IMG/VR virus record: IMGVR_UViG_3300025889_010712
Location: 1-41,744 of that record
DNA: 41,744 nt
Origin: a virus
Reading direction: 5' to 3' (one strand)
In this document: in pieces, positions 10,415 to 41,643 of the stretch
Numbering within the stretch: the stretch's first letter is position 1
Layout of the letters: every line of letters begins with the position of its first letter
Program-made: the position numbers and the translations under genes
The notes under the pieces: model-generated
Databases searched by the model: none
What the model was told of the DNA's origin: nothing
Seen by the model: only the letters and a program-made list of their open reading frames with translations

Positions 10415-11383
10415 ATGCCTAATGCCAAAAATTATAAAGAAAATATATCAACGTTGACGCCCGGTCAAAAAATTGAAAGGGTTGTTATTGATGAAGAGTA
10501 TGTAATTAAACAAAATAAATCCGGCAAAGATGAATTTTATTATGGATTGGACCTGACCAGAGAATTTGTTGAATTACATTTTTATGTTCCAAATACTGAT
10601 ACTTTGGTATATACTGCAATTGTTCCATTAGACTCTCCACACTTTTTATTTGTAACGGAACAAAATGACACTGATAATATTGCTAATCTTGAGTTGGATT
10701 TTTGGACAGAAGGTCCACCTGAAGGTGAGATACAAAATCAGTTCGGACAAAAAATAAGATATTCAAACGCCGACAGTCTTCAGGACACCTATTTATCAGG
10801 TCTTCCTTCCGGTGATTATGATGTTATCATAAACTTTTTCGCAGACGAACTTGGAACATATGATGATATTAATTGGAGAATTAAAACTATATCTCCATCA
10901 AAAACAGAGATTGTATTACACGCAAACCCCGGTCAAAATGGTTCGGAAACCGTTGATTTTGATGCAAGAATTTCTAGAGATTATGAACAATTTTTACTTC
11001 CATCATTATTTTTACCTAAGTTTGGTGAGGCGTTAGACGAAATAGTTGGTGTAGATGATAACGCAGATAGAGTAGAAACCATAAATGATATACAATTGTT
11101 TCTAAATCAGTTTCAAAGAGAGAAAATATCTCTTATGGAGTCAAATCTTTCAATTTCATTTAATGAATACTTACAAAATATTTTGGACCATATTTTATAC
11201 GAAACCAGAACTTTTGCTAATGATGAAATAAGTGGAGAATTATCTGGTGGTGCCAGATACAGAATTCAACAAAATAGACTATATAGACATTTAAACTCAA
11301 TACTTACACAAATAGTTGGTGAACATGAAATATCATTAAATACCAACGATTCCGGCCCTGTTCCATTTATAGTTAATCTATGA
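10415..11383 (+). CDS. Probable baseplate/tail structural protein
   Basis: 322 residues. The first two thirds are beta-rich (EFVELHFYVPNTDTLVY, YDVIINFFADELGTYDDINWRIKTISPSKTEIVL), while residues 220-310 are helical (DIQLFLNQFQREKISLMESN, EYLQNILDHILYE, NRLYRHLNSILTQIV). The NWRIKTISPSKTEI segment resembles pieces seen in large phage baseplate proteins. It is coupled to the next gene by an ATGA overlap. I cannot assign it to a specific T4 protein; gp7, gp8 and gp10 analogues are the obvious candidates by position. Confidence 0.7.
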   Translation: MPNAKNYKENISTLTPGQKIERVVIDEEYVIKQNKSGKDEFYYGLDLTREFVELHFYVPNTDTLVYTAIVPLDSPHFLFVTEQNDTDNIANLELDFWTEGPPEGEIQNQFGQKIRYSNADSLQDTYLSGLPSGDYDVIINFFADELGTYDDINWRIKTISPSKTEIVLHANPGQNGSETVDFDARISRDYEQFLLPSLFLPKFGEALDEIVGVDDNADRVETINDIQLFLNQFQREKISLMESNLSISFNEYLQNILDHILYETRTFANDEISGELSGGARYRIQQNRLYRHLNSILTQIVGEHEISLNTNDSGPVPFIVNL

Positions 11384-13191
11384 GTATACAAATTCTTAAA
11401 AATGGTGCCGATGTCACCAATCAGACGAATAAATTAACCAAAGTATATACCAATGGATATGTTGCCCCAACTGGTGATATTGTAGAAAATTATTCAATTG
11501 TGTATTCCCCTGAAGATGGTGAGACTAATATTACTGTAACATTTCCTCCGACCAGAACAGAAACGGAAAGTTTTGAAATTTTATTTGAAACTCCAAACGG
11601 AGAATCATTGAATAGTCAAACAATACAACTGGAAGATTTTAATAATAATTCTTATAATTTTACAGTTCGTATTGCAAAATCTGTTGTTGATACGTTGGAC
11701 GGGGTAATAGCAGAAAATATCTTCAATAGACAGATTTGGATTAATAAAAAATCCTCTTCTACCTCTTACACATTGGGCTATAGATTCGCTCTTGATAAAA
11801 ATGAATTGTCATTTGAAACATTGGATATTTCTAAAGTTACTGTTGCCGCTCAATTATTTTTAGACCAAGAGGACGGAAACACACAATTGGTTCCTGTTTC
11901 AAATATAGCAGAAGCGGATAGAGGACAACTATATAAAGTAGAATACAAACCAAGTTATGCTAACCAAGTTCAAAGAACACAACCAACACTGAGAGGTTTT
12001 TCAGACACTACTAGACCAAATTCATTTATAATAGAATTTACAAGAACTAGCACCGCGGGTGATGTTGATGATAATTACGATATTATTTTTAATAAGTCTG
12101 GATACAAAGATGGTTTTGGAAATGAGTTGTTAGGAACAAAACAATTATTAAATATTATTAGTGGTCCAATCGTAGTTGAAAAAACAGAATATATAACACG
12201 AATGACTCAAGATGGCAGAGAAATTTTCAATGTTTCGTTGGACGCTCCTGAAGGAATAATAGATATATCAGGAATTTCTGTTTCACTATATGAACTCATG
12301 TCCGGCACACAAACAATTGGAGCACAGGTCAGACCAGAAGATATTAAAGAATATTATATTGTGGTTGGAGGGTCTGGTGTAGATTTGGGTGGAATAACAA
12401 TAAATGGTCAAGTGGCTTCGCCAGAATCACTAACTGGGACCAAAAGATTTGGTCCATTCTCGCCGGAACTGCCCGTTGAAATAATTGGAACAATGCAAAA
12501 TGGTTCAAATGTAGCATCTCTAAAATTAACACATTACGCCTATCTAAATGAAACAAATGTGGACGGAACTCCTATAGCATCACAAATGGATACACAACAA
12601 ACTATATTTAATATATCTAGGTCCAGTATAGGTGAACCACCACCTCCTATTTTCTGGCCACCAACAAGTCTGTTTACCATTAATACGGGTATTGAACCAG
12701 AATTAATAGATGTCAGTAGAATTACTTCAACCGGCACAGCAACATCGGTTCCAGAAGAACAGTGGACATTTGACCAATTGTTTGACCAATATAGTCAACT
12801 ACAACCCGTGGTTTTGACATATCAATTCACAATAGACCCACCAACATCACAACCACTACAAGACGGAAAATTACAATATAGACAATATAACCCATATACC
12901 AATACACGAACCGATTGGTATGATGTTTCTAGCAGTCCATTTGATATAGCTAGAGAAGGTATCGCATATAATCATAATAATCCATTGATTCTACCTGCAG
13001 AGTTTATGGCGTCAGGTCAAAGAAAAATTCAAGTGGGATTAGTTCCATTTGAATGGACAACATTACGAAATGTGTATGAATTTAGAACCGTGGGTCTAGA
13101 AGACCCAGAATCAATTAGATCTTTGGATTATGCTGATAGTTATATGATGATGGTATCTACGCCCGATAATCCAGATGGGAGTCTAATATAA
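11380..13191 (+). CDS. Large probable baseplate protein with repeated beta domains
   Basis: 603 residues, almost entirely beta-strand and loop, with Ig-like segments such as NYSIVYSPEDGETNITVTFPP near residue 40 and TVAAQLFLDQEDGNTQLVPV near 150. A proline-rich linker GEPPPPIFWPP (about residues 417-427) separates an N-terminal two thirds from a C-terminal domain rich in Tyr and Gln. No membrane segment, signal peptide or catalytic motif is visible. Its start overlaps the preceding stop (ATGA) and its stop overlaps the next start (TAATG), making it part of one tightly coupled run from gp6. A virion structural role is inferred from context, and the exact part is unknown. Confidence 0.7.
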   Translation: MSIQILKNGADVTNQTNKLTKVYTNGYVAPTGDIVENYSIVYSPEDGETNITVTFPPTRTETESFEILFETPNGESLNSQTIQLEDFNNNSYNFTVRIAKSVVDTLDGVIAENIFNRQIWINKKSSSTSYTLGYRFALDKNELSFETLDISKVTVAAQLFLDQEDGNTQLVPVSNIAEADRGQLYKVEYKPSYANQVQRTQPTLRGFSDTTRPNSFIIEFTRTSTAGDVDDNYDIIFNKSGYKDGFGNELLGTKQLLNIISGPIVVEKTEYITRMTQDGREIFNVSLDAPEGIIDISGISVSLYELMSGTQTIGAQVRPEDIKEYYIVVGGSGVDLGGITINGQVASPESLTGTKRFGPFSPELPVEIIGTMQNGSNVASLKLTHYAYLNETNVDGTPIASQMDTQQTIFNISRSSIGEPPPPIFWPPTSLFTINTGIEPELIDVSRITSTGTATSVPEEQWTFDQLFDQYSQLQPVVLTYQFTIDPPTSQPLQDGKLQYRQYNPYTNTRTDWYDVSSSPFDIAREGIAYNHNNPLILPAEFMASGQRKIQVGLVPFEWTTLRNVYEFRTVGLEDPESIRSLDYADSYMMMVSTPDNPDGSLI

Positions 13192-16100
13192 TGGCAATTT
13201 CTGATCCAAATGGAATGATAATAGACCCGAACGACCCATATGGAGCCCCAGGCGATGCAGTTCTCCCTGTATTTGCGGTTTTTGTTAATAAAAATAATGC
13301 AGAATCCGACAGTGATAGTGCCTGTGCAATCGGTTCGGAAAATCTTGATTATGTAAAAAATAATCCAGAACTATATTATGTGTATTTAAACCAAGAAACA
13401 GGTCTTCTCTATTTAAATGAACATGGAGTATATAAACTCGCAAAAGGATATTACTATGGTTATGAAGTAACTTCCACTGACCCGTTATCTGTTACTGTAA
13501 ATTGGGCGCGAGCCGGATATTATTATTATAATGGTGAGACTCTTCCACCAGATAGTCCAAATCCATGTGTTGTTGTTCCGCCATCAACCGGAGGAACCAA
13601 TCCACCGACACCCAGAAATACTAATACTACACAGACATCAAATCCAACGGAACTAATAATTCCATTTGGTGTTAGTATAACGGTTGAAAGACAAGTAACT
13701 ATTCCATTACGCACGATTATATCTGGAATATTACAAGAAAATTTTGATAGAAAATTTGAAGATGAGTACGATGACACTAGAATTGGTAAAACATTACTGA
13801 ATCTTCGTGACGATAGGCAAATTCCTGTATTAAATTGGAAAGTTGCGGGAGAACCAAAATATGCGACGAATGGAACACTAACAGGTTATCCAGAAATTGC
13901 ATTAAAACTAGCAGAACCATTAGATACTACACAATATCCACTTAATACTAGTGCGTTTGTTTCTAGAGAAATGTTAAGTAGTGTCTTTGATAAGTTGAGA
14001 TTTATAACAATTGATGATTTATTAATTCCACAACTTCGTCCTGCTATAAATGTTTCAGTAGGCAAATCATCCAGAGTGACCGCTACTTTGGAAGAACTTA
14101 TTACAAATATTGCAGGAGGAACGGGTGTCGCTGATAATATTGGTAGTGATTACAGAAACTTTGTTTCTAATGGAATTTTAGAAGATTTATATAATGAAAA
14201 TTCTGGAATGGATGTTAACATAAACTATTCCAGTTTTGATAAATTTGTTACCTTTGGTTCTGCACAAAAAAGAATTGATGTATTTACTGCAAAATTACAA
14301 CAGATAGAACAGTATATTGTTGATGCTCCTGTCTTTATTGAGAATTTAAATATTTCCGCTTCTTCTGCCGACCAAGGAACATATGAAACTGTATTTGGAA
14401 CCTTGGTAGTTGATAGTAATGGTAATTCTAGTTTAACTGGTTCGTCAAATGTGTATAATATGTTGACCAGTTCTGCAACACCACCAACCGATTTCGTCAA
14501 TAGTTCAATTAACACATCAATTAAGGTTCAGGAACTTATCCGTGGTTTTGATGGATATGAAAAAGAGTTGTGGTTTAGAACTGGATTACAATATACTGCA
14601 TCAAACGGCGAATACCACGCCCCAACACAATACCAAAAAGATGACTACACATATCCAAAAGTATTGGGTATACCTCTAGCAACTACACATACTTCCGCAT
14701 CTACTTGGTATACGGAAATGAGTTCTATTGCTACAGATTATGATAATGATAATCCAAATACACTAAGTAAAAATGTTCCAACATATATTCAGGAAGACCA
14801 ATTTTCTAGTGACTTTGTAACCTTCACAGAAATGATTGGTCACCACTTTGACAATGTAAAAACATATATTACAAACTTAGAAAACATATCTTCTAGATAC
14901 CCCAAGGTTGATGAAGAAATTTCTGGTGATATGGCTAAGAAAGTTCTTGAGTCATTTGGAATTAGCGCTCCAAGTATTGCTAGTGTAGAAAAATTGGTAA
15001 ACTATGTAACGGGTAATAATACAAATGCTCCATATAAAGATATTGCAAACGAATATTACAAGAGATATCTACACGCGTTACCATTTCTACTAAGAACCAA
15101 AGGAACTAAACAGTCGGTTAATTCTTTGTTAAATGTATTTGGAATAAATCCAGATATAATCACTATTAGAGAAAATATTTCAAATAGATACACAAGTCTA
15201 GAACCAAAGAAAGTAACAACCACAGAACAAGACTTTTCATTAACAATTGATAGTGGGTCTTACTTAGTTATTCCATTTAGTTCAAGTCTTAGAAGTCCAC
15301 AAACAATACAAGCTAGATTTGCCTTAAATGATATAGTATCTCAACCCGTATTTAAATTTGATAACGATTATACAGTCCAAGCAACTTTACATCCAAGTAG
15401 TTCTACCAATACCTATTATACTGAAACGGGTAGAATACAATTATTACAGGGAACAACACCACTGACATCCAGTGATTATTTTGATTTGTTTGACCAAAAT
15501 TATGTGTCTCTACAATTAAAATATAATTCGGGTGGTGTTATACTTGATATTAGAAAGATAGAAGGGGAAGATACAACCTTTACACAATCACTACAAGAAA
15601 CTCAAATGAGTATGAGTGCTGATTGGTCATCATTAAATGAATTATACATTGGTATACCTGCTGTTTCTGCTAGTGGTGGTCAGTATACTAGTGCATCTCT
15701 TGATGAGTTTAGAATGTGGGGAGACACAATAACACAGACTAAATTCATTGAGTTCGCAGAAAACCCCGGTATGTATTCCGGTAATACCTATACATCGTCT
15801 CTTGAAGACTTGTACGTAAGACTGTCATTTAACTTACCAACAGATGTTAATACAACTGGTTCTATTCCAAATACTTCTCCGTATGTAAGTAAATCTGTTG
15901 CACTAGACCTTACGAATATAACCGCGGCTGAATTCCCCGCCGGAACCACACCATTATATAATACAACAAGAAATATCAGAACTGTAATTCAACAATCATA
16001 TGACGTTGGCGCAACCAGTGAAACAACAGATATGATTAGAATTGCACCACAACCACCCGCAACAATGTCATTAAGTAGTACAGATACAACGGTTGGTATT

Positions 16101-17510
16101 TATGAAAAATTCTTATCTAGTAGTGTGGCTACAAATGAATTGGATATTTCCATATCGCCTATAGATTCGGTTGATAGAGAAATTATTCGTTCGTTTGGTA
16201 ATGTAAATATTGGCCAGTATTTGGGTGACCCACAAGATACAAATAGAGATAACTACTCTCAACTAGATGTTTTAGAAAACGTGTTCGTCAGAGAATTAGC
16301 ACCAACTATTAATTATAATGGATTTGTTAAGTTTTTTGATAAGTTCTTACATCTTTTCTATGAATCGGTTGAACAGTTCTTGCCCGCACGTTCTAAGATA
16401 AGAAAGGGTATTGTTATCAGACCAAATATTTTAAATAGAACCAAGGTTAACAACAGACAAAATATTAAATTTAGTGGCGAAACATCAAGACGTTCTCAAA
16501 ATTTTGAAAATGACGCGATTCATACATTTAATGTACAATTAAGTACATTGGACGGTTCACCGGATTCATTATTATCTAGTGATGTATATACCACCAACGG
16601 TAATATCTATCAATTAGATAATTGGGGAGCGGACCTAGATGTATCTGGGGTGTCATCATTAAACGCAAGATATGATTATTATGAAAATTTGGCTAGACTA
16701 AATCTTAATAATAATTTGGTTGTCGCAGACACAATAGGAAGTATTGATTCCTTTGGCGCGTTGGAAGCTGTATTGCCCAGAACTTACAAGGAAAATATCA
16801 CGACAAATGTTCAAACTAATTTAACGACAGTTGCATCATATGATGATATTTGGGCAGTTCTTCCAAATTCTCAATTTTCATATGTAAATGAAACATTAAC
16901 TTATTTTAATAGTCCGTATGGATTGTATTATATTGATGAACGAACAGATGTTCCAATAACATCCTCGTATATGTTAGAAAACGGTGGTCCAATTGATCAA
17001 GGAAATTGGGTCAGTGGTCAACCATATAGAAGGGGTGATGTTGTAACACAACCTGTTGGAACAACGGGTTCCTCTGGAAATATATTATCAAAAAATGGCA
17101 GACAGTTTGCATTCGTGGGAAGTGGTTATCCTGCCAATCAATATGTAACTAATATAATTCCGCCCGAACAAGATATAAATTGGATGTTGGTGGGACAACG
17201 TTCACAAATATCACAACAATTAGTAAGAGTTGTATATACAACTGGTTCTCTATATGGCGATAATGCAATAGTTACTACGGTTCTTACTGATTTAACTCAA
17301 CCTTGGGAAAATAATATTCCAATAGAATATACTCCTAGACATTTCATACATCATAGAGATGTAACTTTGGGTGGATTACGTAGAACATATCTTGGAACAA
17401 TAAATACAATTACAACCTCTGCCGACGGAGGTTATCCTTATGAGATATTTACTATTGAAGGAAATGAATTAACAGTTGGGTCGCCTGAACCGTGCCCCGG
17501 TTGTGATTAA
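13191..17510 (+). CDS. Giant baseplate/tail protein with LamG-like lectin domain
   Basis: 1439 residues. An N-terminal 120-residue domain is followed by a Pro/Thr-rich linker (about 127-150). A central region includes IPVLNWKVAG and the helical block YYKRYLHALPFLLRTKGTKQ near residues 623-642, which is a recurring signature of large phage baseplate proteins. Residues of roughly 680-880 read as a concanavalin/LamG-like sandwich: SGSYLVIPFSSSLRSPQTIQ, then SASLDEFRMWGDTITQTKFIE. A later conserved-looking block KFFDKFLHLFYESVEQFLPARSKI lies near 1044-1067. LamG folds usually bind glycans, so a peripheral, possibly host-contacting part is plausible. It is the last gene of the coupled run; a 48-base gap follows. 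It may be the functional counterpart of gp7 or gp10. Confidence 0.75.
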   Translation: MAISDPNGMIIDPNDPYGAPGDAVLPVFAVFVNKNNAESDSDSACAIGSENLDYVKNNPELYYVYLNQETGLLYLNEHGVYKLAKGYYYGYEVTSTDPLSVTVNWARAGYYYYNGETLPPDSPNPCVVVPPSTGGTNPPTPRNTNTTQTSNPTELIIPFGVSITVERQVTIPLRTIISGILQENFDRKFEDEYDDTRIGKTLLNLRDDRQIPVLNWKVAGEPKYATNGTLTGYPEIALKLAEPLDTTQYPLNTSAFVSREMLSSVFDKLRFITIDDLLIPQLRPAINVSVGKSSRVTATLEELITNIAGGTGVADNIGSDYRNFVSNGILEDLYNENSGMDVNINYSSFDKFVTFGSAQKRIDVFTAKLQQIEQYIVDAPVFIENLNISASSADQGTYETVFGTLVVDSNGNSSLTGSSNVYNMLTSSATPPTDFVNSSINTSIKVQELIRGFDGYEKELWFRTGLQYTASNGEYHAPTQYQKDDYTYPKVLGIPLATTHTSASTWYTEMSSIATDYDNDNPNTLSKNVPTYIQEDQFSSDFVTFTEMIGHHFDNVKTYITNLENISSRYPKVDEEISGDMAKKVLESFGISAPSIASVEKLVNYVTGNNTNAPYKDIANEYYKRYLHALPFLLRTKGTKQSVNSLLNVFGINPDIITIRENISNRYTSLEPKKVTTTEQDFSLTIDSGSYLVIPFSSSLRSPQTIQARFALNDIVSQPVFKFDNDYTVQATLHPSSSTNTYYTETGRIQLLQGTTPLTSSDYFDLFDQNYVSLQLKYNSGGVILDIRKIEGEDTTFTQSLQETQMSMSADWSSLNELYIGIPAVSASGGQYTSASLDEFRMWGDTITQTKFIEFAENPGMYSGNTYTSSLEDLYVRLSFNLPTDVNTTGSIPNTSPYVSKSVALDLTNITAAEFPAGTTPLYNTTRNIRTVIQQSYDVGATSETTDMIRIAPQPPATMSLSSTDTTVGIYEKFLSSSVATNELDISISPIDSVDREIIRSFGNVNIGQYLGDPQDTNRDNYSQLDVLENVFVRELAPTINYNGFVKFFDKFLHLFYESVEQFLPARSKIRKGIVIRPNILNRTKVNNRQNIKFSGETSRRSQNFENDAIHTFNVQLSTLDGSPDSLLSSDVYTTNGNIYQLDNWGADLDVSGVSSLNARYDYYENLARLNLNNNLVVADTIGSIDSFGALEAVLPRTYKENITTNVQTNLTTVASYDDIWAVLPNSQFSYVNETLTYFNSPYGLYYIDERTDVPITSSYMLENGGPIDQGNWVSGQPYRRGDVVTQPVGTTGSSGNILSKNGRQFAFVGSGYPANQYVTNIIPPEQDINWMLVGQRSQISQQLVRVVYTTGSLYGDNAIVTTVLTDLTQPWENNIPIEYTPRHFIHHRDVTLGGLRRTYLGTINTITTSADGGYPYEIFTIEGNELTVGSPEPCPGCD

Positions 17511-37630: not shown

Positions 37631-40378
37631 ATGAAAAAAGTAGCAATATACACAGGAAGGTTCCAACCTTTCCACAAAGGACATTATAGTGCTTACAAAC
37701 ACCTCGTTGATAAGTTCGGCGAGGAAAATGTCTATATTGCTACTAGTGACCCGAAGGAAACTACTGAAAAGGACCCATTTGATTTCCACGGAAAGAAAGA
37801 AATCATGCATTCTATGTTTGATATTCCGTCTGACCGTATTGTTCAAGTTAAAAGTCCCTATAGTCCAAAGGAAATCTTAGATAAGTATGACCCAGAAACC
37901 ACTCAATTTATTACAGCGGTTGGTGAAAAAGACGGCGAAAGACTTTCGCAGGGTAAATATTTTAGAAGATATGATGATAAAGAACAGGACCCCGTTTCTT
38001 ATGGTAAGGGCGGTTATTTTGTAACCGTTCCTAACTTTAAAGTAGACGATGTGGTTATGAGTGCAACCCGAATTAGAGATACTTTGGGTAGTCCATCTGT
38101 ATCTATGAAAGATAAAGTAGATTTCTTTAAGAAATTATATGGAAAAATGGACCCAACTGTGTTCAAGATGATGACCAGTGGTATAGAAAGTGGATTACAA
38201 AAAACAAAAGAAAAGGTAGCTCTGAAAAAACAACAAGAAAAACCAAAAGACGGAGAAGAAACATCAACTAAACAAAAAGTTGACCGTTCTGCCTTGATGA
38301 AAAAGATTCACAATCCACAAACAAGACGAGATATCTTGGTCAAGACCGCATTAAACTATGATAAGGACCATCCTGCTTATAAATTAGCAAGAAAGATGTT
38401 CCAAACAGGAACTATGAATGAGATATTTGCTCCTGTATTGTTAGAAAATGCACTTATTAATCAATACAATTCGCTGGTTGATCAATATGTTGTTGGTGAA
38501 GACGAGAAAAAGAAATGTCGTATTGAACCAACTGATGATTACACAGAGATTGAGAAGAAATGTAAGAAGGCATACAAGAAAGGCGTCTTCTATTACCCTC
38601 TGGCATACGCCCTAAGAACCGCCAATCTACCAGATAACCCCAACGAAGACCCACAACCAGAACCTCAACCACAACCCGAACCAGAAGTTTCGGAGGCGGA
38701 GAGTTCTACTGAGCGTGTTAGAAAATACTATAAGAGACACCCAGAAAAAGTAAAGGCTTATCTTCGTAAGACTGTTGATGATAGAGTTGCTAGAAACCGT
38801 GACCGCGCTAAAGCCATAAAGAAATATGGTGAATCAAAAATGAAAAACCACGATGTCCATCATCCAAATGGTGCACAGAATGGTAATTGGAAACTAGCAA
38901 AGAAAGACCACGGTAGAGATAAGAAGAATGAACAGGCACTATTTGAAGGTGGTGCTGCCGGACATATGATGCATCCATATGAAGATATGGAATTGACCTT
39001 TGGTGAATACAAAGACATGATTACACAGGGTCTAGTGGGTTCGTTTGGTGAGGATTCACAAATGACAGAGAAACTAGACGGTCAAAATATCGCATTTACG
39101 GTGATTGATGGTCAAATTAGATTCGCTAGAAACAAAGGACACGTAAAAAATCAAGGTCAGGACTCCTTGACAGTCAAAGGAATAATAGATAAATTTGAAG
39201 GTAGAGGAGCAATTCAACGAGCGTTCGTTGGTGCCGCCGAAGATTTGGAAAGTGCGTTAAAACAATTACCCGCCGACCAAGTTCAAAAGATGTTTGGTAA
39301 TGGTTCTACCTATATGTCAACCGAAATTATCCTACCAGATAGTGAAAATGTAATTCCATATGGTAAGGCAGTCTTGGTTTTCCACGGAACAATGACCTAT
39401 GATGAGGATGGAAACAAGGTAGACCAGAATCCAGAACACGCTACAGAACTAAATGACTTGGTAAAACAGTATGGTCAACAACAACAAAAGGTATTTGGTA
39501 TCCAAGGACCACACGTAATTACATTTAGTGACGAAAATAGTGATGAATTGAAAGAAAGAGTTAGAGAATATCATAGCCAAATTGATAGATTAGCTGGTTC
39601 AATTAGTGCTGATGACAACACACCAGTTAGTGAATACTATAAAAAGTGGTGGGAAAACGAAATTAAACAATCATTATCCTCCGCGGGACTAGAAGCGGAT
39701 GTTGACGAATTAGATGCATTGGTCAATCGTTTTGCCTTTGATGATAAGTCAGTTAAAGCAGGAACATTTTCACCAGAAATGAGAAGATGGTTAGCTCAAT
39801 ATCAAACACAAGTATTTCCACAGAAACAAAAAGAAGCTAGAGCACCATTTGAAATGATATTCCTACGAGCCGGCCAAGATAGTTTAAGTAGAATTAAAGA
39901 TTTCTTGGGGTCAAATAATCCAGAAGCCGTAAGTAAGTTAGAAAGAGAAATAGAAAAGGTAAGAAGAGCACTCAAGGGACAAGATTTGGGTGACGCCGCT
40001 GAAAAATTAGCACAAGAATTTGAACGACTAGAACAGATTGGGGTTGATAGATTAGTTCCAAGTGAAGGTTTGGTCTTTATGTATAATGGAAGACCGTATA
40101 AATTCACAGGTGCTTTTGCTCCAATCAACCAGATATTAGGAACATTTAAATTTGGAACACCCGCTGGACAACAACAGGCACCAGCTGCACAACCCACAGG
40201 CGGTGCAACTGTCGGTGATAGAAACTTCATCAAACAGTTCTATGGTGAAAAGATTAGAAATCCAATGACAGGTAAACAAATTACACTACAATCTGCATTA
40301 ACATACGCAAAATCACATCCAGCTTATAAAGCTGCGTTACAATTCCTACAAGGAAAGGTAGGACAAAAGGAAGGTTAA
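37631..40378 (+). CDS. NMNAT-like nucleotidyltransferase / HNH-like / ligase-like fusion protein
   Basis: 915 residues with three catalytic-looking parts. Residues 1-185 are an HxGH-type nucleotidyltransferase (NMNAT/NadM or cytidylyltransferase family): YTGRFQPFHKGH (H15, H18) and SATRIRD (144-150). Residues 358-435 resemble an HNH nuclease segment: RVARNRDRAKAIKKYG then DVHHPNGAQN (H410, H411). Residues 445-840 read as a ligase-type covalent nucleotidyltransferase: EKLDGQN (K481), FARNKGH (R500), STEIILP (E565), EGLVF (E812) and PYKFTGAFAP (K824). An NP-x-T...AL-Y-K-HPAYK module occurs twice, at about 228-253 and 877-902. An acidic Pro/Gln linker lies at 339-354. Related phage proteins are usually called cytidylyltransferase or ligase; the substrate (NAD, RNA or DNA) is unknown. 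It starts three bases after the small membrane protein. Confidence 0.75.
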   Translation: MKKVAIYTGRFQPFHKGHYSAYKHLVDKFGEENVYIATSDPKETTEKDPFDFHGKKEIMHSMFDIPSDRIVQVKSPYSPKEILDKYDPETTQFITAVGEKDGERLSQGKYFRRYDDKEQDPVSYGKGGYFVTVPNFKVDDVVMSATRIRDTLGSPSVSMKDKVDFFKKLYGKMDPTVFKMMTSGIESGLQKTKEKVALKKQQEKPKDGEETSTKQKVDRSALMKKIHNPQTRRDILVKTALNYDKDHPAYKLARKMFQTGTMNEIFAPVLLENALINQYNSLVDQYVVGEDEKKKCRIEPTDDYTEIEKKCKKAYKKGVFYYPLAYALRTANLPDNPNEDPQPEPQPQPEPEVSEAESSTERVRKYYKRHPEKVKAYLRKTVDDRVARNRDRAKAIKKYGESKMKNHDVHHPNGAQNGNWKLAKKDHGRDKKNEQALFEGGAAGHMMHPYEDMELTFGEYKDMITQGLVGSFGEDSQMTEKLDGQNIAFTVIDGQIRFARNKGHVKNQGQDSLTVKGIIDKFEGRGAIQRAFVGAAEDLESALKQLPADQVQKMFGNGSTYMSTEIILPDSENVIPYGKAVLVFHGTMTYDEDGNKVDQNPEHATELNDLVKQYGQQQQKVFGIQGPHVITFSDENSDELKERVREYHSQIDRLAGSISADDNTPVSEYYKKWWENEIKQSLSSAGLEADVDELDALVNRFAFDDKSVKAGTFSPEMRRWLAQYQTQVFPQKQKEARAPFEMIFLRAGQDSLSRIKDFLGSNNPEAVSKLEREIEKVRRALKGQDLGDAAEKLAQEFERLEQIGVDRLVPSEGLVFMYNGRPYKFTGAFAPINQILGTFKFGTPAGQQQAPAAQPTGGATVGDRNFIKQFYGEKIRNPMTGKQITLQSALTYAKSHPAYKAALQFLQGKVGQKEG

Positions 40379-40382
40379 GGTT

Positions 40383-41003
40383 ATGTCATATAAAAAGAAT
40401 GAGTTAACGAATGTCCACAGGGGTGTTCAAGAAACTATTCAAAAGAAAATGAATACTTACGCCAACAAAATCGTTGTTGGTCAGTATACGGGCAAGAAAG
40501 AACCAATCAGACAAGACGGTGAAGTTTGGACAGACGATGAAAATCGTCAATGGGAAATGAAGGACGGTATAAAACAAAGAATCAGTCCTCTTCAGGGTGC
40601 TAAAACTCCTTGGTGGTGTCCTGTTTGTAATAAAACCATGAATAGTTATGATATCAAAGCGTGGAGAGTTCACGCACATTGTCTTGATTGTGTTGCCAAA
40701 GAAGAAACTAGAATGAAAATTGACGGTGTTTGGGAAGAACATCGTAAAAAAGAAATGTTAAAAAGTCAAATTTCTTATCTAACAGAAAAAATAGTTGAGT
40801 TGACATATTATCACGATACAGTTTCTAATCCAGAATTCATGACGTTTGATGACCAAACTGGTGCAATCCTAATGGTTGATAAATATCAAATCCCACTAGA
40901 GAAGGTCAAGAAAGACATTATGGAAGAAGTGGTTAGTATGAACAAAATTTTGAAGGAAAAGGAAAGAGAATTAGAAGAATTAATGGAGAATTCCGATGTT
41001 TAA
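40383..41003 (+). CDS. Zinc-finger-like protein upstream of terminase
   Basis: 206 residues. TPWWCPVCNKTMN...HAHCLDC (C79, C82, C100, C103, with H97 and H99 nearby) looks like a zinc-binding site, flanked by a basic N terminus and a helical, charged C-terminal half (about 105-205) that may be a coiled coil. Similar proteins occur in T4-like marine phages. Two genes upstream of the large terminase is a position where a small terminase (gp16) could lie, but I see no motif to prove that. The last eight bases overlap the next gene. Confidence 0.78.
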   Translation: MSYKKNELTNVHRGVQETIQKKMNTYANKIVVGQYTGKKEPIRQDGEVWTDDENRQWEMKDGIKQRISPLQGAKTPWWCPVCNKTMNSYDIKAWRVHAHCLDCVAKEETRMKIDGVWEEHRKKEMLKSQISYLTEKIVELTYYHDTVSNPEFMTFDDQTGAILMVDKYQIPLEKVKKDIMEEVVSMNKILKEKERELEELMENSDV

Positions 41004-41643
41004 AGCATTTTTACAATTATTGAAAGATAATTTGCATATAATTCCATTGGTGTTACTATCTGTTTTTCTTAGTTCTTATGTCACTTCTATGTTTAAGCAA
41101 GATGAAATGGACGTTTATATTGAACAATATAACGAATTTAAACAAAGAGCAGAACAAACCGAACAGTTTGCAGACAGTTTAGATAAATTGGTAGATGGAT
41201 ATAGGGAAGAAATAGAAGAATTAAATGATTCCATTTTTATACAAACTAATAAATTAAGTGATGCTGAGACTAGAGTTGCTGATTTAGGTAGAAGAACGGC
41301 TAATTTAAGAGAACAATTAAACGATTCTTTGATGTCTCATGTTCCAGAACCAGTAGTAGCATATATTGATGGATTGGAAGAAGAGAATATAGCATTAAAA
41401 GATAATGTAACTGCCGCTAATACATTGATTTTCACTCTCCAATCTCAGAACGATTTATTAAGTACATCACTAGCTCTTCAAACCACAAGAGCTGATTCAC
41501 TTGCGGCCATTGTAGCGGCTATTCCAGAACCACCTAAGAACCCAAATAAGGTGTTGGGTTTCCTTCCTAAACCAACTAGAACCCAAACATTCATACTTGG
41601 GGCAGTAGTTGGTGGTGTTGCCGCGTGGAAACTTATAGGATAA
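40996..41643 (+). CDS. Coiled-coil protein with membrane segments at both ends (spanin-like)
   Basis: 215 residues. An N-terminal hydrophobic segment (about 14-31, IIPLVLLSVFLSSYVTSM) is followed by a long coiled coil (about 37-180), a proline-rich IPEPPKNPN stretch and LGFLPKPTRTQTFILGAVVGGVAAWKLIG, a second membrane-like segment at the C terminus (about 197-214). The architecture, one anchor and a long rod, resembles a lysis spanin (Rz or unimolecular), but a C-terminal membrane helix is atypical. It may also be a tape-like or membrane scaffold protein. GGAG at 40985-40988 precedes ATG 40996. The terminase gene starts three bases after its stop. Confidence 0.7.
   Translation: MFKAFLQLLKDNLHIIPLVLLSVFLSSYVTSMFKQDEMDVYIEQYNEFKQRAEQTEQFADSLDKLVDGYREEIEELNDSIFIQTNKLSDAETRVADLGRRTANLREQLNDSLMSHVPEPVVAYIDGLEEENIALKDNVTAANTLIFTLQSQNDLLSTSLALQTTRADSLAAIVAAIPEPPKNPNKVLGFLPKPTRTQTFILGAVVGGVAAWKLIG

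Follow-up and report, generated by a model that had tools for sequence, protein, structure and literature searches.

A phage late-gene protein family joining NMNAT-like and divergent RNA-ligase-like domains

A late gene of a T4-like environmental phage encodes a 915-residue fusion protein in which a nucleotidyltransferase domain of the HIGH superfamily, resembling the NMN adenylyltransferases (NMNAT) of the NadM type, is followed by a ligase-type covalent nucleotidyltransferase domain with a predicted, divergent RNA-ligase fold. The pairing is kept almost without exception across a viral family that has hardly been annotated, and the gene lies a short distance upstream of the large terminase gene. 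The reading that we favour, to which we give about an even chance, is that this is a two-enzyme late-gene protein of polyvalent type that would serve counter-defence by combining the sealing of RNA ends with adenylyl transfer by the HIGH domain.

The window (the whole 41.7-kb stretch of a viral record that was analysed) contains recognisable baseplate, tail-fibre, primase, and SbcCD-like genes and comes from a contractile-tailed, T4-like phage; no tRNA genes were found in it. Elsewhere in the window, a 1063-aa frame at 21822-25013 matches SbcD (residues 13-368) and then SbcC (residues 354-1061), and represents a fused SbcD-SbcC of the T4 gp47/gp46-like kind with homologues upstream of the fusion gene in eight other loci, while two large frames of the structural region, at 13191-17510 (1439 aa) and 11380-13191 (603 aa), have no PHROG match. 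The first-pass annotation had described the fusion gene, from its letters, as a single frame carrying HxGH, HNH-like, and ligase-type motifs; the frame of 915 codons, its coordinates, and every motif quoted are present in the sequence, each at its described residue. From the N-terminus, the protein consists of a NadM/NMNAT-like HxGH domain, a first HPAYK module, an HNH-like segment, the ligase domain, and a second HPAYK module, and this whole architecture is shared by full-length homologues at 46-88% identity. An AlphaFold2 (AF2) model of the full-length protein, built from 11 rows, was poor (pLDDT 60), and nothing was taken from it beyond the sequence of secondary-structure elements and the NMNAT fold matches.

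37631..40378, + strand: whole gene, 915-aa fusion protein (open reading frame and translation; full-length homologues)

The identity of the central domain is carried by its catalytic residues and by its predicted fold, for which the following features are needed.

38942..40153, + strand: covalent-nucleotidyltransferase (RNA-ligase-like) domain, residues 438-841 (AF2, Foldseek, sub-threshold Pfam)
38963..38986, + strand: family signature GHxxHPxxD, before motif I (H445, H448, and D452 conserved in 107/107, 106/107, and 103/107)
39068..39082, + strand: motif I, EKLDG, with candidate AMP-accepting K481 (E480, K481, D483, and G484 in 107/107)
39128..39130, + strand: R500 (ARNK), motif Ia (107/107)
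39323..39325, + strand: E565, motif III (107/107)
39539..40039, + strand: all-helical insertion, ~residues 637-803, between motifs III/IIIa and IV (AF2 secondary structure)
40064..40066, + strand: E812, motif IV, EGxVF (107/107)
40100..40102, + strand: K824, motif V, YKxTG (107/107)

The five residues that had been put forward as a full set of ligase motifs (K481, R500, E565, E812, and K824) are all invariant in the 107 aligned sequences, some of which are only ~30% identical to the window protein; motif V carries a single lysine (YK-x-TG). AF2 modelling of the domain from 48 sequences gave a pLDDT of 89.3 and a pTM of 0.85, with insertion helices at positions 200-219, 230-247, 254-266, 278-315, 329-346, and 350-366 of the domain model and no OB-fold seen after motif V. 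When this model was compared with the PDB by Foldseek, ranks 1-31 were occupied by RNA or DNA ligases throughout, a Palaeococcus (archaeal) RNA ligase and T4 Rnl2 standing at the top, with low TM-scores and a best E of 3e-3, so that no match was obtained at E <= 1e-3; among the viral models of BFVD, close relatives named only 'cytidyltransferase-like' ranked first and RNA ligases appeared from 5e-5. Profile searches point in the same direction at lower scores. No Pfam family was above threshold for residues 438-841, RNA_ligase scoring 16.7 bits against a gathering cut-off of 27, and RNA_ligase was matched below threshold by 35 of 48 diverse members, with the next family matched by five. A comparison by hhalign with a small T4 Rnl2-containing alignment brought motifs I-III into register, weakly (probability 12%, P 0.0024), and a profile made from the ligase alignment found nothing meaningful in the PDB. 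Judged by sequence and predicted structure together, the domain is a new and divergent ligase-type covalent nucleotidyltransferase with a predicted RNA-ligase fold; the AlphaFold and Foldseek check that had been proposed predicts for this middle part a nucleotidyltransferase fold whose nearest structures are RNA ligases. Motifs I, Ia, III, IV, and V and the core are shared with the ATP-dependent RNA ligases (T4 Rnl2, archaeal Rnl3-type, and T4 Rnl1), from which the domain differs in its ~165-residue helical insertion between motifs III/IIIa and IV, the single lysine of motif V, its unique GHxxHPxxD signature, and its position under the Pfam cut-off.

The N-terminal domain is recognised more readily, and the HxGH nucleotidyltransferase proposed from FQPFHKGH and SATRIRD was confirmed at the levels of both profile and fold.

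37631..38230, + strand: HIGH-superfamily (NadM/NMNAT-like) nucleotidyltransferase domain, ~residues 1-200 (Pfam, profile, Foldseek)
37673..37684, + strand: HxGH motif HKGH, residues 15-18 (H15-H18; alignment)
38060..38077, + strand: SATRIR, residues 144-149, second HIGH-family signature S-[AG]-T-x-x-R (conservation in 40 sequences)

Residues 1-200 pass the cut-off of Pfam PF01467 (CTP_transf_like; 5.8e-7, 30.2 bits, cut-off 21), archaeal NMNAT structures are the first matches of the family profile (1.1e-8), TIGR01527 (archaeal NMN adenylyltransferase) is matched by 38 of 40 family members, and the best 27 Foldseek matches of the full-length model are NaMN/NMN adenylyltransferases. The last histidine of HxGH (H18) and S144 are invariant in 40 sequences, T146 and R149 are conserved in at least 90% of them, and SATRIR aligns with the SGTxxR of archaeal NMNAT. 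The phage 'cytidyltransferase' families phrog_395 and phrog_3041 have a homologous N-terminal HIGH domain, and it is only this region that aligns. The HxGH and S[AG]TxxR motifs, the NMNAT fold, and the best profile matches are thus held in common with NadM, both archaeal and in the NadM-Nudix form of phages. The domain differs from NadM in lacking Nudix, in being fused to a ligase, in having a clade with a variant active-site motif, and in scores far under the curated NadM cut-offs (29.2 bits vs 127; 25.4 vs 181.2), and because of these scores NMN is best described as a likely rather than a demonstrated substrate.

The variant motif is found in a sister clade that accounts for 38 of 104 HIGH domains, in which H15 is replaced by glycine or alanine (GxHH/AxHH for HxGH) and the last histidine is kept; with about a third of relatives altered in this way, the reaction of the HIGH domain may vary across the family. 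The GxHH clade includes L013, L048, L052-L062, and L071, among others, and retains SGTxxR as well as the last histidine. In two relatives, L055:5420-7453 (GGFKPLTGAH) and L099:2392-4440 (GSFKPMTGGH), a different HIGH subfamily stands where the NadM-like domain is expected, which suggests non-orthologous replacement beside the same ligase; the Lak-phage protein that the HIGH domain of L055 matches consists of HIGH on its own, with no ligase attached. It might be supposed from the GxHH variant, from this substitution, and from the low NadM scores together with the missing NadV (see below) that the HIGH domain is not an NMNAT at all, and that it activates some other 5'-phosphate, such as that of a sugar or a nucleic-acid end, or strips AMP from abortive App-ended intermediates. 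Since NMN/NaMN adenylyltransferases are nonetheless the best matches by both profile and fold, this seems unlikely.

Between and around the two catalytic domains lie three smaller elements.

38300..38404, + strand: HPAYK module copy 1, residues 224-258 (conserved in relatives)
38696..38926, + strand: HNH-like motif segment, residues 356-432 (HDVHHPNG...KKDHG; H411, H427; 19-sequence alignment)
40247..40351, + strand: HPAYK module copy 2, residues 873-907 (conserved in relatives)

The HPAYK modules had been noted as duplicates flanking the HNH/ligase region, and they are true repeats: their alignment scores 90 with BLOSUM62, whereas 2000 shuffled versions averaged 19.6 and never exceeded 40. 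They are common to the nearer relatives of the window protein. The HNH-like DVHHPNG segment usually lies shortly before the ligase domain in the family, and H53, D54, H56, H57, P58, G60, D72, and H73 (segment numbering) are invariant in the 19 aligned sequences, so that the claim of a conserved motif segment stands. Its identity as HNH does not have the same backing, as neither these sequences nor their profile matched an HNH family or structure in Pfam and PDB profile searches, and an order of elements compatible with beta-beta-alpha (E407-410, E421-424, H434-440) appears in the low-confidence full-length model only. Searches by tblastn with the HNH-like segment and with the HPAYK module found no annotated phage. 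A report on jumbo phages (PMC7824862) describes HNH-fused Rnl2 ligases, which resemble the window protein in having an HNH-like motif segment before the ligase domain; in the present family, however, the HNH identity is unconfirmed by profiles, the ligase is not of the Rnl2 type, and an NMNAT-like domain is added. With PF01467 passed, the five ligase residues invariant, and the HPAYK repeat score far above shuffled sequences, the motif set of the window protein is far beyond chance.

The ligase domain was found in only three annotated phage records, those of Microcystis phage Mel-JY01 and two jumbo-sized uncultured phages, and scans of uncultivated viruses gave at least 594 and at least 582 confirmed relatives; the family is large, abundant, and almost unannotated. 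Genome contigs contained only seven relatives; the contigs in question are small, belong to metagenome-assembled genomes, and appear to be viral sequence that was binned together with the host. Among 72 intact non-redundant proteins, 71 join the ligase to a HIGH nucleotidyltransferase, which stands before it in 51, after it in 17, and on both sides in one (L043), the remaining two being those with the other HIGH subfamily (L055 and L099). The sole exception is L015, a stand-alone ligase of a jumbo phage, and this protein has no PHROG match at all; L114 (L114:2405-3661) was left out of the 72 because a stop codon divides its ligase region between two successive frames. On a quick ligase tree with several long branches, a couple of changes suffice to account for the domain order, and L043 branches beside the ligase-first proteins, as would a duplication-and-loss intermediate of the order change. 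Retention of the fusion in 71 of 72 proteins and in both orders suggests that the HIGH and ligase activities work together, which extends the coupling of two nucleotide-transfer domains proposed in the first-pass annotation beyond the single protein on which it had been based. No description of a HIGH-ligase fusion was found in the literature searched; the accessible portions of the three closest surveys have no apparent mention of it, and an earlier description elsewhere is possible.

How the two activities might be coupled bears on NAD+ metabolism. The published route of NAD+ salvage in phages needs NadV, and all surveyed phages with NadM have NadV (PMC9503650). NadV (PF04095) is absent from the two large records that carry the fusion, those of Mel-JY01 (190 kb, in a record titled complete genome) and LR756508 (484 kb), both of whole-phage size, which differ in this from the surveyed phages with NadM. 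Among 40 records, NadV occurs in one, that of the phage with the stand-alone ligase; most of these records are fragments, so that its absence from IMG/VR records says little. A complete, plain NAD+ salvage pathway was rejected given the absence of NadV from both large records, and the suggested NAD rescue is not supported in the form known from phages. A LigA-type NAD+ ligase was likewise rejected, since PF01653 (Ia/adenylation) matches none of the fusion genes searched; a match was present only in a separate gene of one jumbo phage.

The absence of NadV does open another reading, in which the ligase would take AMP from NAD+ instead of ATP and release NMN, from which the fused NMNAT would remake NAD+ with ATP, giving a single catalytic cycle in which sealing continues at low NAD+ or during host NAD+ depletion. 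Such a ligase would provide one reason for a near-obligate fusion in either order and would explain why Mel-JY01 and the 484-kb record have an NMNAT but no NadV. The phage with the stand-alone ligase, in turn, has a NadV of its own, and the invariant GHxxHPxxD before motif I could hold the leaving group. This signature nevertheless lies only ~36 residues before K481, and domain Ia of LigA is longer than ~36 residues; an Ia domain is missing, as the PF01653 search indicates, two members use a different HIGH subfamily, and an NAD+-dependent RNA ligase was not found in the literature searched. We therefore regard a ligase cycling NAD+ in this way as improbable.

The gene neighbourhood places the fusion in the late virion gene region.

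40383..41003, + strand: downstream neighbour +1, 206 aa, zinc-ribbon-like with CPxC...CxxC (homologue at +1 in 42/45 loci)
40996..41643, + strand: downstream neighbour +2, membrane-anchored coiled-coil protein, spanin-like by appearance (neighbourhood comparison)

The 206-aa neighbour matches no Pfam or PHROG family above threshold. In 41 of 45 loci there is a homologue of the gene that the annotation of Mel-JY01 calls 'large terminase', most often at +3, and the fusion gene lies two or three positions upstream of it in most loci, the terminase standing at +3 in relatives that extend further. This position would suit a function on DNA, in which the protein seals or marks DNA ends at packaging or just after injection, and DNA ligases are also among the Foldseek matches. 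The best structural matches are, however, RNA ligases, and the model has no OB-fold, so that a role on DNA ends appears very unlikely.

The favoured counter-defence reading draws further on the company that the two domains keep. A P-loop kinase module (GGPGSGK[ST]) is present in about 27 relatives, with a Zeta_toxin match of 3.7e-11 in L062; the module resembles Zeta toxin or polynucleotide kinase (L062, L058, L121, L128, and others). An HExxH zincin-like protease module occurs in 17 relatives (L021, L044, L059, L081, L094, and others), of which L021 and L044 have a PGDYG segment besides, and ParB_N and Peptidase_M78 are matched below threshold in relatives. Kinase, protease, and ParB-like domains are all absent from the window protein, and L004, a close homologue of 916 residues, has no HExxH, this module being confined to some relatives. 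As described by Iyer et al. 2017 (PMC5512222), polyvalent proteins are multidomain mosaics encoded beside late genes that join disparate activities and are proposed to be injected with the DNA. The present proteins resemble them as large mosaics near late virion genes, in the zincin-type HExxH, ParB-like, and kinase modules of the relatives, and in the joining of disparate catalytic domains (HIGH and ligase) in one large chain. Since homologues carry these additional kinase, protease, and ParB-like parts, the family is probably a 'polyvalent' late-gene effector. PMC5512222 does not list 'ligase' as a domain or use 'cytidylyltransferase', its one remark being that its 2H domains were never linked to RNA ligases, and the HIGH-ligase pair differs from the modules of polyvalent proteins in being constant instead of optional.

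This difference also bears on whether the two activities belong together. Restoration of NAD+ after attack by host NADases and repair of RNA after host ribonucleases could be two independent counter-defence activities, chemically unlinked, as the disparate activities joined among late genes in polyvalent proteins (PMC5512222) and the kinase, protease, and ParB-like parts of the homologues would allow. The constancy of the pair nevertheless far exceeds what would be expected of a loose mosaic, and NadV, the companion of NadM in published phage surveys (PMC9503650), is missing; two unlinked activities are, in our estimate, a somewhat unlikely but by no means far-fetched arrangement.

In the favoured reading of a late two-enzyme effector, the ligase domain would take AMP onto K481 and pass it to a 5'-phosphate, sealing a broken nucleic acid that is probably RNA, for example tRNA cleaved by the host, although the acceptor may be DNA or protein. 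The HIGH domain would use ATP to adenylylate an NMN-like 5'-phosphate substrate within the same response to damage, and the P-loop kinase of homologues might heal ends. The protein would be made late and perhaps packaged and injected, so as to counter host defences at once. Of the roles first suggested, counter-defence or RNA repair is made plausible by the kinase, zincin, and ParB-like company and by the late-gene position beside the terminase, whereas NAD rescue of the known form is not supported, given the absence of NadV.

In an abundant and almost unannotated viral family, an enzyme of NMNAT type and one of divergent RNA-ligase type thus appear to be inseparably joined in a single chain, whichever comes first. 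The fusion links two themes of phage counter-defence, NAD+ metabolism and RNA repair, that were previously known from genes of their own. Should substrates pass between the two sites, the family would represent a new kind of ligase cycle; otherwise it would be a widespread two-activity late-gene effector, the targets of which could show which defences matter in the infections of aquatic phages.
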